Shown: positions 3,701 to 17,292 of the stretch, piece by piece | Numbering within the stretch: position 1 is the first letter of the stretch | Layout of the letters: every line of letters starts with the position of its first letter | Assembly: GCA_022763425.1 (NCBI GenBank) | Contig: JALEGD010000001.1 | Coordinates: 1-64,000, forward strand | DNA from: Pelagibacteraceae bacterium | Lineage (GTDB): Bacteria > Pseudomonadota > Alphaproteobacteria > Pelagibacterales > Pelagibacteraceae | Direction: 5' to 3' | DNA: 64,000 nt | Translations under genes and position numbers: made by a program | The notes under the pieces: model-generated | Told to the model about the DNA's origin: nothing | What the model saw: the letters and a program-made list of their open reading frames with translations, nothing else | Databases searched by the model: none

Positions 3701-3770
3701 CTCAAAGGTTGATATCACTACAAGGCTATAGTATTTTCCCTCAAACTTTAATTAATTAAGGGGGACAATA

Positions 3771-4769
3771 ATGAAAAAGCTATTTGCTTCTTTCACGTCA
3801 GCTTTAGCAATTTTTGCTTTTAGTTTACCTTTCAGTACTTCTGTAAAATCTGCAGAATTCTTTACAATTGGTACTGGTGGTGCAACTGGAGTTTATTTCC
3901 AAGTTGGTAACGCTATTTGTAAAATGGTTGCAAAGCTACAATCTGCCGAGCACGGTAGAAAAAAAGGAACTGACAAAGCGTACAGATGTGCGGCTCCATC
4001 TTCAGGTGGATCAACATATAACATTGGTCAGATCCAACAAGGCGAGTTTCAATTTGGTGTAGCTCAGTCTGACTGGCAGTATCATGCGTACAATGGTTCT
4101 AAGCCAGATAAAGTAAAACCTTTCAAAGATCTAAGAGCTGTATTTTCTGCTCACCCAGAGCCTTTTCAAATTATCGCAAGAAAAGGATCTAAGATCAAAG
4201 ATTGGAAATCTTTAAAAGGAAAAAAAGTTAACATTGGTAACCCAGGTTCTGGTCAAAGAGGAACTTTTGAAGTGCTAATGGAATCTCACGGTGTAAACAA
4301 AAGTTATTTTGGTTCATCTTCTGAGTTAACTTCATCTGAGCAATCAGGTGCACTATGTGATAAAAAAATTGATGCTTATGGTTATACTGTAGGTGTACCA
4401 AATGCTGGTGTTGCTCAAGCAACTGATGGCTGTGGTGCTTACATTATTAACCTAACAACTCCACAAGTAAAGAAGCTAGTTGCGGATAACCCGTTCTATG
4501 CTTTTGCAACTATTCCAAAGGGAACTTACAAAACTTCTAAGAAGGATGTAACAACTTTTGGTGTGATGGCATCTGTTGTTACAAGCGCAAGTGTTTCTGA
4601 TGAAATGGTATACAATGTAGTGAAAGCTGTTTTTGAAAATCTTGATGATTTCAAAAAACAACACCCTGCATTTGCAAACCTTGATCCTAAGAAAATGATC
4701 AAAGATGGTTTGTCTGCACCATTACACCCAGGAGCAGTTAAGTATTATAAAGAAAAAGGCTTAATGTAG
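3771..4769 (+). CDS. TAXI-family TRAP transporter solute-binding protein
   Basis: The 332-residue product has a Sec signal peptide with predicted cleavage after Ala28 ('SVKSA'). The mature start 'FTIGTGGATGVYFQVGNAI' is the hallmark of TAXI solute receptors, and 'SSGGSTYNIGQIQQGEFQFGVAQSD' type text further supports it. It binds a substrate in the periplasm and delivers it to the fused membrane component encoded downstream. A strong GGGGG ribosome binding site precedes ATG 3771. A terminator hairpin follows the stop, which would let this gene be made in excess over the permease. TAXI ligands are usually carboxylates or amino acids such as glutamate; here the ligand is unknown. Confidence 0.93.
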   Translation: MKKLFASFTSALAIFAFSLPFSTSVKSAEFFTIGTGGATGVYFQVGNAICKMVAKLQSAEHGRKKGTDKAYRCAAPSSGGSTYNIGQIQQGEFQFGVAQSDWQYHAYNGSKPDKVKPFKDLRAVFSAHPEPFQIIARKGSKIKDWKSLKGKKVNIGNPGSGQRGTFEVLMESHGVNKSYFGSSSELTSSEQSGALCDKKIDAYGYTVGVPNAGVAQATDGCGAYIINLTTPQVKKLVADNPFYAFATIPKGTYKTSKKDVTTFGVMASVVTSASVSDEMVYNVVKAVFENLDDFKKQHPAFANLDPKKMIKDGLSAPLHPGAVKYYKEKGLM

Positions 4770-9874: not shown

Positions 9875-10864
9875 TTACAATTTTTTTGCTTCTTGAACTA
9901 GCTTGTCGCCAACTCCACCTTTTCCACCAGTTCTTTTGATGTAATCATCGATAACTGAGGAAGAGGCTTTTTTAAGTGCATTAAGTTCTGAACCTGAAAG
10001 TTTTACAATTTTCATGCCATTTTCTTTTGCAACTTTGTATGCGCCAGCTTCAATATTAGCCATGTCATCTCTAACTGCTTTTTCAGCAATTTTAGATGCA
10101 GCTTGTATAGCTTTTTGTTGTTTTGAATTAAGCTTGTTGTACCATTTTTGATTTACAACAAGTAAAAATTCAATATCACCATGATTAGTTACAGTTAGTG
10201 TATCCATCACTTGATATAATTTTCTTGATTTAACACCTGATACACCTGTCATTCCAGCATCAACTGTACCTCTTTGATATGCAAGATATTGTTCAGATCC
10301 TGAAATTAAAGTTGGCTTACCACCAAGTGAAGAAACAAAAGCACCTAAAGTTTTTCCAAAAACTCTGATCTTTTTATCTTTAAAATCAGATGGTGTTTTC
10401 ATCGGTTTGCCATTTGATAACATTACCGCCATTCCATAAGCCTGATAATAAAGTGGCATTGCTCCTGTTTTTGCAATTGCCGGGTCTAAAATTGCCCTAA
10501 TTTTAGAACCTTGTGCTGTAGCTTTTCTTACTTTTTTTTCTGAGTCAAATAAGAACGGCAAATAAAACACATCTACTTCAGGATTAGTACCAGCAAATCT
10601 GGTAATTGATGCTACACCAGCTTCAATCGCTCCAGACCCAACAGCCTGAGGCACTTCCTTATCTTTATAAAGTTGAGCCGAATCATATATTTCAACTTTA
10701 ATATCTGATCTCTTTTCTAACTCCTTCTTAAATACCAAAAGGTTTTGACCCAAATGTGCTTTTAAAGGTAGTTGAAGAGTAATCCTCATCTTAGTTTCTG
10801 CAAATGATATTGTTGCGAATGAAACTAAAACAAATGTAAGAAATAATTTTCTTAAAATTTTCAT
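9875..10864 (-). CDS. dctP: TRAP transporter solute-binding protein (DctP)
   Basis: The 329-residue product starts with a Sec signal peptide (cleavage near 'ISFAET', about residue 22). The DctP fold is shown by 'DSAQLYKDKEVPQAVGSG', 'VDVFYLPFLFDSEKK' and 'YLAYQRGTVDAGMTGVSG', the last covering the usual ligand-binding region. It captures an organic acid in the periplasm for DctQM. It is the first gene of the dctPQM-lyase transcript, preceded by a strong GGGGGA ribosome binding site. The accompanying lyase and the 2-oxoacid-dehydrogenase-type E1 upstream suggest a small carboxylate as ligand, but this is inference. Confidence 0.94.
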   Translation of the reverse strand: MKILRKLFLTFVLVSFATISFAETKMRITLQLPLKAHLGQNLLVFKKELEKRSDIKVEIYDSAQLYKDKEVPQAVGSGAIEAGVASITRFAGTNPEVDVFYLPFLFDSEKKVRKATAQGSKIRAILDPAIAKTGAMPLYYQAYGMAVMLSNGKPMKTPSDFKDKKIRVFGKTLGAFVSSLGGKPTLISGSEQYLAYQRGTVDAGMTGVSGVKSRKLYQVMDTLTVTNHGDIEFLLVVNQKWYNKLNSKQQKAIQAASKIAEKAVRDDMANIEAGAYKVAKENGMKIVKLSGSELNALKKASSSVIDDYIKRTGGKGGVGDKLVQEAKKL

Positions 10865-10887
10865 TTATCCCCCTTGTTAAAAACTTA

Positions 10888-13613: not shown

Positions 13614-14510
13614 ATGAATTGGATTGTTGTCACAGTTATTGCGGCCTTTTTGCAAAACCTTAGATTTACTTTGCAAAAAAATATAAACAAAAATGTTTCT
13701 ACTTTTGCGTCATCTTATGTAAGATTTGCTTTTGCATGTCCTTTTGCAATAGCTTTATTTTTTATTTATTTTCAAGATACTTCAATTATTACACAAGCAT
13801 TATCGAATAATAAATTCATCATCTATTTTATATCGGCATCAATATCACAAATAATTTTTACATTCATAATGTTGTACTTATTTCAATTCTCAAATTTTAT
13901 AATTGGAACGTCATTAAGTAAAACAGAAGTGATACAAATTGTTGTTTTGGAACTTGTATTATTTGGCGATACTTTAAGTTTTTTAGCAACAACTGGTGTG
14001 ATAATCTCAACCATAGGGATTATTATTTTTTCAGTAAAAAATTTAAATCTTTTTTTTAAAAATTTATTTTCAAAAACAACAATTATTGGAATCATTACAG
14101 GTTTTTTTTTAGGTTTAAGTGTTGTGTTGTATCGTGGGGCAACATTAAGTCTTACAGAATTTGATTCAAAATTTGAAAAAGCGTTATGTACTTTGTTTTT
14201 TGGAGTTACTTTTCAAACAATACTCATGACGATTTATATTTATCTATTTGAAAGAGGAGAATTTAAAAAACTTTATGAACATAGATATCAATGCCTAACA
14301 GCAGGGTTTTGTAGCTTTGTGGGAACTTTATCGTGGTTTTATGCATTTTCACTAATACAATCTTCTTTTGTAAGAGCGTTGGGCCAAATCGAGTTATTAT
14401 TTAGTTATTTCTCTTCTACTTTATTTTTTAAAGAAAAAGTTAAATTAATCGAAATAATTGGAATCTTAATTTTCGTTACAGGAGTTACTATTATGCTAAT
14501 TTTTAAATAA
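13614..14510 (+). CDS. EamA/DMT-family membrane transporter
   Basis: The 298-residue protein has about ten hydrophobic helices in two EamA-like halves. The second half ends with 'ALGQIELLFSYFSSTLFFKEKVKLIEIIGILIFVTG', typical of drug/metabolite transporters. It would export or import a small metabolite across the inner membrane; the substrate cannot be predicted. It is divergent from aceE (41 bases apart) and its last 15 bases overlap the 3' end of the LysR stump on the other strand. Confidence 0.85.
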   Translation: MNWIVVTVIAAFLQNLRFTLQKNINKNVSTFASSYVRFAFACPFAIALFFIYFQDTSIITQALSNNKFIIYFISASISQIIFTFIMLYLFQFSNFIIGTSLSKTEVIQIVVLELVLFGDTLSFLATTGVIISTIGIIIFSVKNLNLFFKNLFSKTTIIGIITGFFLGLSVVLYRGATLSLTEFDSKFEKALCTLFFGVTFQTILMTIYIYLFERGEFKKLYEHRYQCLTAGFCSFVGTLSWFYAFSLIQSSFVRALGQIELLFSYFSSTLFFKEKVKLIEIIGILIFVTGVTIMLIFK

Positions 14511-14741
14511 ACTTAAATTAGTATCAAACTCATTTACAACTTTTAAAAGAGCATTTCCTTTTTCAGTTAATTCTATTCCATTTTTCATATGACGAATAAA
14601 TAACTTGAAACCCAGGTCTTTTTCTAAGCTCATTATATCTCGACTAAAACTAGATTGAGATTTTTTAAGAACTTTAGAAGCGTGATTAAAACTTTTATAT
14701 GTTGAGATTTTTTTAAATGTTTCTAATTTTTTCCAATTCAT
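14496..14741 (-). CDS. LysR-type DNA-binding domain without effector domain
   Basis: The 81-residue product is an almost complete LysR N-terminal winged helix-turn-helix ('LETFKKISTYKSFNHASKVLKKSQSSFSRDIMSLEKDLGFKLF') followed by 'LTEKGNAL' and a short linker helix. Normal LysR proteins have about 300 residues; the co-inducer-binding domain is absent. The downstream sequence is the convergent DMT transporter gene, so no remnant of that domain is present. It is either a truncated gene or a genuine HTH-only regulator. ATG 14741 is the natural start. Confidence 0.75.
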   Translation of the reverse strand: MNWKKLETFKKISTYKSFNHASKVLKKSQSSFSRDIMSLEKDLGFKLFIRHMKNGIELTEKGNALLKVVNEFDTNLSLFKN

Positions 14742-14869: not shown

Positions 14870-16162
14870 CTAGTCTCTTATTGCATAAGCTGCTACACCG
14901 ATCTCAGCAACATCTGTTCCCTTTTGCTCGGCTTCTTTACTTACTCTTATTCCAAATGTGCTAGCCATCACCTTCCAGATCACAAATGATACTACGAAGA
15001 CAAAAGCTATAACACTAATCACCCCTAGGAACTGTGCTCCAAAGTTAGTGTCAGCATTTGATAAAGGAACTGCTAATGTTCCCCAAATTCCAGCGAACAT
15101 GTGTACAGGAATTGCTCCAACTACATCATCAATTTTTAATTTGAATAATAGTTTAGTTCCTAGCACAACGATTGCTCCACCAATTGCTCCAATAATAATT
15201 GCAGCACCAGGTGTTGGCGCTAATGGTTCAGCTGTAATTGCAACTAATCCGCCTAAAGCACCGTTTAACATCATAATAACATCTGTCTTACCTGTTAAAA
15301 ATCTAGTGATTAATGCATTGGCAATTACACCACCACAAGCAGCTAAGTTGGTATTGATGAAAATTTTTGCAACAGCAGTTGCATCATCAACAGTACCTAA
15401 AGCTAATTGTGATCCACCATTAAATCCAAACCAACCAAACCAAAGGATAAATACACCGATAGTTACTTGTGGAATTGATGAATTTGCAAATGGAGGCATA
15501 GGCTTATCTTTAGATGATGAGAATCTTCCAAGTCTTGGACCTAAAACGATTGCACCAGCTAAAGCAGCAGCTCCACCAGCGGCGTGAACAAGAGTTGAAC
15601 CAGCAAAATCAGAGAAACCGGCTTTTGCTAACCAGCCTCCGCCCCACTGCCAACCCATTTCAATTGGGTAAATTACACCAGTTAAAATTGCCGCAAAAAT
15701 AAAGAACGGCCAAATTTTAATTCTTTCAGCTAATGTACCTGAAACAATTGATACAGTTGTTGCACAGAAAACCATTTGGAAGAACCAATCAGATCCATCT
15801 GAGTAACCAGTATCTAATTTTGATCCATCGCTCCAAGGGATGAACGAACCTATGTATCCACCTTCAGGAATACCATATGCTAAATTATATCCTCCAAGCC
15901 AGAACATAATTCCAGCGATAGAAAATAATCCAATATTTTTTGCTGCAATTGAAGAAACACTTTTCGATGTTACCATTCCTGATTCCAACATTGCAAAACC
16001 GGGCGCCATAAACATTACTAGAAAACCACATATTAAGAATAATAATGTATTAAAAATATATTGTGTTTCAGCCCCTACCTTACTTTCGGCAGAAAAACTG
16101 GGTTCTACTAGGAATATTAAAGCGAACAGTGCAAAAGATAAGTAGTGACTTATTTTTTTCAT
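14870..16162 (-). CDS. amtB: Ammonium transporter AmtB
   Basis: The 430-residue protein has a cleavable-looking N-terminal signal ('VEPSFSA') and the 11-helix Amt fold. The two pore histidines are visible in 'GSTLVHAAGGAAALAGA' and 'VGAIPVHMFAGIWGTLAV', and 'FNGGSQLALG' is also typical. It conducts ammonium into the cell for glutamine synthesis. The usual partner gene glnK is not adjacent, in line with the reported absence of PII proteins in Pelagibacterales. A strong AAGGAG site precedes ATG 16162, and a long leader with several hairpins and an internal terminator lies upstream, suggesting RNA-level control. Confidence 0.96.
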   Translation of the reverse strand: MKKISHYLSFALFALIFLVEPSFSAESKVGAETQYIFNTLLFLICGFLVMFMAPGFAMLESGMVTSKSVSSIAAKNIGLFSIAGIMFWLGGYNLAYGIPEGGYIGSFIPWSDGSKLDTGYSDGSDWFFQMVFCATTVSIVSGTLAERIKIWPFFIFAAILTGVIYPIEMGWQWGGGWLAKAGFSDFAGSTLVHAAGGAAALAGAIVLGPRLGRFSSSKDKPMPPFANSSIPQVTIGVFILWFGWFGFNGGSQLALGTVDDATAVAKIFINTNLAACGGVIANALITRFLTGKTDVIMMLNGALGGLVAITAEPLAPTPGAAIIIGAIGGAIVVLGTKLLFKLKIDDVVGAIPVHMFAGIWGTLAVPLSNADTNFGAQFLGVISVIAFVFVVSFVIWKVMASTFGIRVSKEAEQKGTDVAEIGVAAYAIRD

Positions 16163-16220
16163 TTTATTCTCCTTAAAATAAATTTTATTGTTATGCGGAA
16201 TTTAGATAGTTATCGGTTAC

Positions 16221-16249
16221 AAAAAAGCGCTAATCTGGATAATCAGCGT
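16221..16249 (-). terminator. Terminator-like hairpin in the amtB leader
   Basis: In minus-strand sense CGCTGATT and AGATTAGCG form an 8-bp stem with two G-U pairs around a short loop, followed directly by CTTTTTTG. It lies about 60 bases before the amtB start, so it either ends a small RNA or the upstream gene's transcript, or attenuates amtB. Confidence 0.6.
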
Positions 16250-16437
16250 TTCAAAAATTAGATATCTAAAAACGGAATACTTGATTTGATGATATAGAAT
16301 GTTTTGGTGTGCTTAAATTTAACTAACAGGGGACATGAAGTGAGCAAACTCAAGCACACACCTAAGTCCTATTCGTATTCGTTTCTTTTTTGAATCAAAA
16401 ATGTCCTAATTCACCCAATACGAGTCTTTAGATAAAA
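16221..16437 (-). ncRNA. Candidate structured leader RNA or small RNA upstream of amtB
   Basis: The 275-base gap between two minus-strand genes is long for this genome and less AT-rich than normal spacers. In the amtB sense it contains a TCGTATT/AATACGA pairing (16417-16423 with 16373-16379), a larger arm with GGTGTGTGCTT pairing AAGCACACC (16352-16362 with 16306-16314) enclosing a smaller GAG-CAAA-CTC hairpin, and a final hairpin with a U-tract (16221-16249) before the amtB ribosome binding site. Two pairs in the last hairpin are G-U only on the minus strand, which supports that transcript sense. It does not match a riboswitch class that I can name. Confidence 0.55.
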
Positions 16438-17292
16438 TTAAATCGCTATTTTTTTAGCTTTTTCGATATATTTTTCACGCAACAACTTAGTGAATTTTCC
16501 TGGTTTTCCATCTCCAATTGTCGACTTATTGATTTTGATTACGGGTGTAACAAAAGTTGTGGCGCTTGTTACAAACGCTTCATCTGCGCTTTGTGCTTCG
16601 TTAATTGTAAAATTTTTAAAATCTACTTTGTAATTTAATTCCTCTGCACATTCGATAACTGCTTCTCTCGTAATTCCTCTTAATATTAAGTTATCAAACT
16701 GCCTTGTAATCACGGTTCCTTTTCTAATGATCCATGCATTATTAGATGTTCCTTCAGTAATATATCCATTTCTAACCATCCAAGCATCATCAAAACCTTT
16801 TTCAACTGCAGAGGATTTAGCAAATGAGGGATATAGAAGTTGTACTGTTTTGATGTCACAACGCTTCCATCTCATATCATCAATGGTCATAACTTTAATT
16901 CCTTTTAAAGCTGCATCATTTTGGAGTAGGTCTTTGACTTGTGTAAACGCTGTAACAGTCAGTTCTATTTTTTTGTCTGGAAAATCAAAACTTCTCTCGG
17001 CTACACCGCGTGAGACTTGAAGGTAAACCACACCTTCTTTCAAGTTATTTTTTTTTACTAGTTCTCTATGAAATAATTCAAGATCTTTATGGTCTAATAA
17101 TTTTGGATAATTTAGTTCTGTCATTGATCGATCAAGCCGTTTCATGTGATTTTTAAAATCTATTAACTTGCCGTCTAATACTGAAGTTACTTCATACAAT
17201 GCATCACTAAAGAGCAAAGCACGATCAAAAATTGAAACTTTTGCCTGCGCTTCATCAAGATACTCACCGTTTAAATAAACTGTTCTTCCCAT
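16438..17292 (-). CDS. dat: Class IV aminotransferase, D-amino acid aminotransferase type
   Basis: The 284-residue product begins 'VYLNGEYLDEAQAKVSIFDRALLFSDALYEV', as do D-alanine and branched-chain aminotransferases of fold type IV. The PLP lysine sits in 'RCDIKTVQLLYPSFAK', equivalent to DIKSLNLL in Bacillus D-amino acid aminotransferase, and 'GYITEGTSNNAWII' follows, as in that subgroup. It should interconvert D-alanine and D-glutamate with their 2-oxo acids for cell-wall supply or D-amino acid use. It lies 2 bases downstream of nadB, so it is probably cotranscribed. Confidence 0.88.
   Translation of the reverse strand: MGRTVYLNGEYLDEAQAKVSIFDRALLFSDALYEVTSVLDGKLIDFKNHMKRLDRSMTELNYPKLLDHKDLELFHRELVKKNNLKEGVVYLQVSRGVAERSFDFPDKKIELTVTAFTQVKDLLQNDAALKGIKVMTIDDMRWKRCDIKTVQLLYPSFAKSSAVEKGFDDAWMVRNGYITEGTSNNAWIIRKGTVITRQFDNLILRGITREAVIECAEELNYKVDFKNFTINEAQSADEAFVTSATTFVTPVIKINKSTIGDGKPGKFTKLLREKYIEKAKKIAI

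Follow-up and report, generated by a model that had tools for sequence, protein, structure and literature searches.

The dat–amtB spacer and its core hairpin

The window analysed here, a stretch of 64,000 nucleotides, contains an intergenic spacer (16163-16437) that is flanked by amtB (14870-16162, minus strand) and dat (16438-17292, minus strand). On the minus strand the order is dat, spacer and amtB, all in the same sense. The host genome matches SAR11 subclade IIIa, and the hairpin sequence described below is also found in named records, including HIMB114, AG-894-A09 and CP.1, that are treated as members of this subclade (PMC10030771). An 81-amino-acid open reading frame adjoining amtB (14496-14741, minus strand) resembles the amino-terminal DNA-binding part of a LysR regulator alone. 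The features of the spacer are as follows:

16370-16381, minus strand: conserved element CRAATA-N4-TA, about 20-26 nt upstream of the stem; candidate promoter or processing region
16307-16359, minus strand: core hairpin of the proposed trans-acting small RNA (sRNA), 53 nt (match to covariance model R1, E 6e-19; fold z -5.0)
16346-16359, minus strand: 5' arm of the stem, GUGUGCUUGAGUUU, from aligned copies
16321-16345, minus strand: apical loop, GCUCACUUCAUGUCCCCUGUUAGUU (GUCCCCU and AGUU invariant in 14 aligned copies)
16307-16320, minus strand: 3' arm of the stem, AAAUUUAAGCACAC, from aligned copies
16313-16333, minus strand: anti-RBS segment UCCCCUGUUAGUUAAAUUUAA, formed by the loop and the top of the 3' arm and complementary to the DctP-1 and DctP-2 RBSs
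16258-16269, no strand assigned: palindrome TTAGATATCTAA, outside the sRNA core, whose own core TAGATATCT keeps a constant offset; probably a DNA site for the amtB promoter
16228-16248, minus strand: terminator-like hairpin of 8 pairs, including two G-U pairs, with CUUUUUUG directly after it (poorly conserved); possible sRNA 3' end here

Folded as the minus strand, the core hairpin consists of a 14-bp stem and a 25-nt loop (MFE -18.6, z -5.0), whereas the same DNA folded as the opposite strand gives a z of only -0.9. The fold of the entire spacer has a moderate advantage over shuffled sequences (z -1.97). An earlier note on this DNA had described three separate pairings of 7, 9 and 8 bp. The middle one is the stem described here; it was understated, as it comprises 14 pairs, and the other two had been given the same weight; the 7-bp and 8-bp pairings are present but not conserved. 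The 7-bp pairing (UCGUAUU/AAUACGA), for instance, can be read in the sequence but is broken, as judged by eye, in the near relatives G003 and G004, so that it is probably a product of chance.

The stem is conserved as a structure. All 14 of its pairs are kept, with 100% of cells paired across nine distinct sequences, and the pairing is lost in a control in which the partner is slid. One position has changed in both arms, and several changes confined to a single arm retain pairing. On the opposite strand the G-U pairs turn into A-C mismatches, two in each scored g1 and g12 copy. The functional RNA is thus assigned to the dat/amtB sense, in which the stem pairs in all scored copies. The 25-nt loop, which includes UGUCCCCUGUUAGUU, is nearly invariant, a GUU in it being changed in G001 alone among the 14 aligned copies.

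Upstream of the stem, the CRAATA-N4-TA element was spotted by eye in 16 regions, one of them with the variant CAAATC. A sigma-70 promoter search of the minus strand gave no good consensus, and the element is poor as a -10 box. In g12 genomes (L073, L075 and L076), a small hairpin close to the end of dat is followed by a second CCCC stretch (GCGATTCCCCT...), and in G028 the second stretch reads CCCCTGTCAGTT, which resembles another anti-RBS motif.

Distribution of the hairpin

Homologs were sought over the genomes of the family with a DNA search and then with a covariance model. The alignment and covariance check across relatives that the earlier note had proposed recovers the conserved stem in every genome sampled from three genera (eight in g1, three in g8 and six in g12; 17 genomes), and these genera match SAR11 subclade IIIa; the same check yields no Rfam match, a scan of the spacer at both gathering and relaxed thresholds returning nothing credible. 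The remaining genera of the family contain no strong match (among 297 genomes), and 385 alphaproteobacteria contain no new one, at the stricter filters of these large scans, which lose weak matches. A pattern scan of viral_contigs gave no match.

Weak covariance-model matches in G245 and G099 were not homologue-like on inspection, and a match in G018:C2 falls on the RBS of another, third DctP gene rather than on a copy of the sRNA. In G012, dat is present but is followed by neither the hairpin nor amtB. The loop variant of G001, CCCCUACAAG (L077 1501-1553), has a longer stem and a narrower loop; a compensating change in the DctP-2 RBS of that genome was sought and not found, and DctP-1 was not found in this genome, which is 76% complete.

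Relation to amtB

In g8, all three copies of the hairpin still lie directly after dat, but a convergent permease gene comes next and amtB is absent there. Moreover, the amtB RBS shows no excess complementarity to the loop (-8.1 kcal/mol against a background mean of -8.3). The control of ammonium uptake that the earlier note had suggested is not supported, since the hairpin is kept without amtB beside it, the amtB RBS pairs no better than background and the loop instead fits the RBSs of TRAP and ABC binding proteins (see below).

The terminal hairpin and U-tract of that note are indeed present at 16248-16228 on the minus strand, with eight pairs, and the two G-U pairs that it assigned to the minus-strand RNA were confirmed. 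One terminator-like hairpin is found where shuffled sequences lead us to expect 0.1, and similar ones are present in G003 and G036. As a conserved terminator, however, it was rejected for most members of the genus: of the eight scanned with a comparable criterion, six lack it at this position, among them G006, which is 93% identical.

The palindrome behaves differently. Its core, TAGATATCT, lies 51-54 nt from the sRNA loop in all 13 core-bearing g1 and g12 copies and in none of the three g8 copies. Its presence where amtB is adjacent and its absence from the g8 copies suggest that the site belongs to amtB, and TTAGATATCTAA is likely a regulator site for that gene. The lineage is reported to lack PII and NtrBC. 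Two other roles for the palindrome were considered and rejected: it is not a terminator stem, as conservation covers the core without extending to the U-tract beside it, and it does not define a regulon, as TTAGATATCTAA is unenriched, with one exact site and, per strand, 11 sites at one mismatch, compared with 19 for a reversed control pattern.

These observations bear on two readings that tie the hairpin to amtB. In the first, a dual element, the sRNA would be released by termination before amtB, while polymerases that read through from the shared promoter would feed amtB, so that repression of uptake proteins and ammonium uptake would depend on a single transcript; this is a sub-case compatible with a trans-acting sRNA, and we regard it as improbable. 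The sRNA and amtB lie on the same strand, the offset of TAGATATCT is fixed in all scanned amtB-bearing copies, and weak, variable terminators could leak; on the other hand, the palindrome resembles a separate amtB promoter site and the RNA persists in g8 away from amtB. In the second reading the spacer is a cis leader, that is, a riboswitch or transcription attenuator whose hairpins gate transcription into amtB. The position and orientation of the core hairpin relative to amtB agree with such a leader, as do the eight pairs and U-tract seen in the window, G003 and G036, but we consider it very unlikely: amtB is not a conserved downstream gene, the loop is complementary to unlinked genes, nothing in Rfam matches, and there is no expression platform in the form of a conserved terminator or RBS sequestration. 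Of the RNA switch, attenuator or small RNA that the earlier note had offered, the small RNA is thus retained and the other two are set aside, given the unconserved terminator and the g8 copies.

Predicted targets

A 16-nt site complementary to the loop, TTTAACTAACAGGGGA, occurs with at most one mismatch at only three places in the hairpin's own genome: the RNA locus itself and the Shine-Dalgarno (SD) regions of two DctP genes. In these two genes, which encode TRAP binding proteins and carry the site in relatives as well, it lies 7-10 nt before the ATG. Counted by hand in the same genome, the DctP-2 RBS is complementary to UCCCCUGUUAGUUAAAUUUAA at 20 of 21 positions and the DctP-1 RBS is complementary at 17 of 18.

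Ranking 434 genes by loop-RBS duplex energy places nine of the ten binding proteins, which are drawn from five Pfam families, in the top 18 (p 8e-7). The nine comprise four TRAP (DctP), one TAXI, two Liv-type, one OpuAC/ProX-type and one SBP_bac_3 (YhdW/AapJ-type) protein; PstS is not among the predicted targets in this ranking. Such rankings are from samples of about 400-464 kb, roughly a third of each genome, and use simple gene calls and start sites. Two of the predicted targets in the window are:

3741-3770, plus strand: RBS region of a TAXI-type binding protein (3771-4769, plus strand; PF16868), predicted target (-22.6 kcal/mol, rank 5 of 434)
10865-10884, minus strand: RBS of a DctP binding protein (9875-10864, minus strand; PF03480), weaker predicted target (-19.1 kcal/mol, rank 11 of 434)

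Other strong loop partners include an ABC ATPase downstream of the YhdW-like gene (L195 17034-17762; -23.2 kcal/mol) and a PLP-decarboxylase-like gene (window 59429; -20.6 kcal/mol). The partner at rank 3, a DNA-methyltransferase-like gene with a doubtful start (L184, genome position 350497), is probably a gene-call artefact.

A C-rich loop might be expected to meet the G-rich RBSs of highly expressed genes by coincidence alone. Control loops in which UCCCCU was kept and the flanks were shuffled (n=60 per genome) already favour binding proteins somewhat, with a mean of 4.8 in the top 20 in G000. However, none of the 60 controls equals the real loop in any of three RNA-bearing genomes (G000, G006 and G067), whereas 10 of 60 do so in G010 and 13 of 60 in G012, two RNA-lacking genomes in which there is no signal beyond the SD. 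Coincidence is therefore a highly improbable account of the enrichment.

The DctP leaders point in the same direction. The motif AACA[GCT]GGG occurs in the orthologous DctP-2 RBSs of 15 of 15 genomes with the RNA and 0 of 11 without it, and in the DctP-1 RBSs of 9 of 13 and 0 of 4, respectively, although these are not counts of independent events because the genomes are related. RNA-lacking genomes, too, carry the AU-rich stretch UUAACUAA in the DctP-2 leader, and part of the DctP-2 match is thus ancestral and older than the sRNA; in such genomes (L144 and L147) the leader has GTTAACTAAC or TTAATTAACTAA before the SD. Strong duplex energies for single genes also occur in some RNA-lacking genomes (G012, G024 and G025).

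That TTTAACTAACAGGGGA is instead a DNA operator, to which a transcription factor would bind in the spacer as well as at the transporter genes, is very improbable. An identical sequence does recur at several unlinked, functionally related loci, but at the targets it coincides with the SD, lies 7-10 nt from the start codon and always has the G-rich strand as sense. The spacer copy always lies within a stem in which a compensatory change and G-U pairs preserve the pairing for just one of the two strands.

A proposed trans-acting sRNA

The conservation of the hairpin, its strand, the RBS complementarity, the enrichment of binding proteins and the absence of that signal from two RNA-lacking genomes were all obtained by computation. 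Taken together, they make it very probable that the dat–amtB spacer is the gene of a small hairpin RNA with a loop able to pair with the RBSs of many uptake-protein mRNAs, and this RNA would then look like a general brake on nutrient uptake. The best reading is a trans-acting, Hfq-independent sRNA that would work like AbcR, NfeR and GcvB but form a separate family. No match to Hfq (PF17209) was found in 37 Pelagibacterales genomes, while the control search was positive in bacteria known to have Hfq; pairing therefore probably proceeds through the open loop and long complementarity, or with the help of another chaperone.

In the mechanism we propose, the sRNA would be transcribed in the dat-to-amtB direction and would form one stable hairpin, whose large loop displays an extended anti-SD sequence. 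In cells, this loop may pair with the RBSs of periplasmic solute-binding-protein mRNAs. The most likely outcome is RBS occlusion, in which ribosome entry would be blocked and several uptake systems would be lowered together without Hfq. Some signal presumably controls the sRNA, and amtB would be a neighbour with a regulatory site of its own. A more speculative extension, which we hold only tentatively and think unlikely, is that the ancestor of SAR11 IIIa acquired a master sRNA, whose source may have been the leader of a binding-protein gene copied in inverted orientation; that the RNA drew the RBSs of unrelated binding proteins into its control; that its Hfq-free TRAP/TAXI/ABC regulon sets the uptake profile; and that a transcript shared with amtB couples nitrogen supply to carbon uptake.

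SAR11 bacteria depend on binding proteins and have few transcription regulators, and their proteome and transcript changes are reportedly uncoupled. If the proposal is correct, a single RNA that pairs with most of the sampled binding-protein mRNAs would be a direct cause of this uncoupling, and a broad base-pairing regulon would be workable without Hfq in a streamlined genome.

Comparison with known systems

The sRNA family is apparently undescribed so far: literature searches found no description of a dat–amtB hairpin RNA and, for SAR11, no description of a trans-acting sRNA with targets. Functionally, one counterpart is the enterobacterial GcvB, which as a master regulator controls the translation initiation of many mRNAs for ABC binding proteins. 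GcvB, however, uses a G/U-rich linker instead of a hairpin loop, is Hfq-dependent and is unrelated in sequence to the SAR11 RNA.

Within the same bacterial order, a survey of structured RNAs in Ca. Pelagibacter ubique HTCC1062 described housekeeping RNAs and candidate cis-regulatory elements (Meyer et al. 2009; PMC2704228). The hairpin RNA is like these in being a conserved intergenic RNA of a streamlined genome, but its proposed mode of action is base pairing in trans, and it was found in the IIIa genera alone.

Other parallels come from alphaproteobacteria. NfeR1 of Sinorhizobium meliloti represses periplasmic-binding-protein mRNAs and, like the SAR11 RNA, has anti-SD motifs, three identical ones in 115 nt where the SAR11 RNA has one extended loop motif (PMC8844928). 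AbcR1 and AbcR2 (alpha-r15, Rhizobiales) are trans-acting and expose an anti-SD sequence in a hairpin loop that targets the RBSs of solute-binding-protein mRNAs such as LivK (PMC3712013, PMC8844928). The SAR11 RNA is likewise alphaproteobacterial, carries a loop-exposed anti-SD (UCCCCU in a 25-nt loop) and, by prediction, targets solute-binding-protein RBSs. The AbcR RNAs, however, occur in tandem copies with the motifs UCCUCCC and UUCCCCUC, need Hfq for stability and have three stem-loops that end in a Rho-independent terminator, whereas the SAR11 RNA has one conserved hairpin, a variable terminator, longer predicted pairing (up to 20 of 21 nt), prominent TRAP targets and no Hfq match in 37 genomes of its order. 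As it has a single hairpin, no Rfam match and no Hfq, the SAR11 RNA is not a member of alpha-r15. It would fall into the general kind of trans-acting anti-SD sRNAs, being encoded away from its predicted targets and complementary to them at their translation starts.
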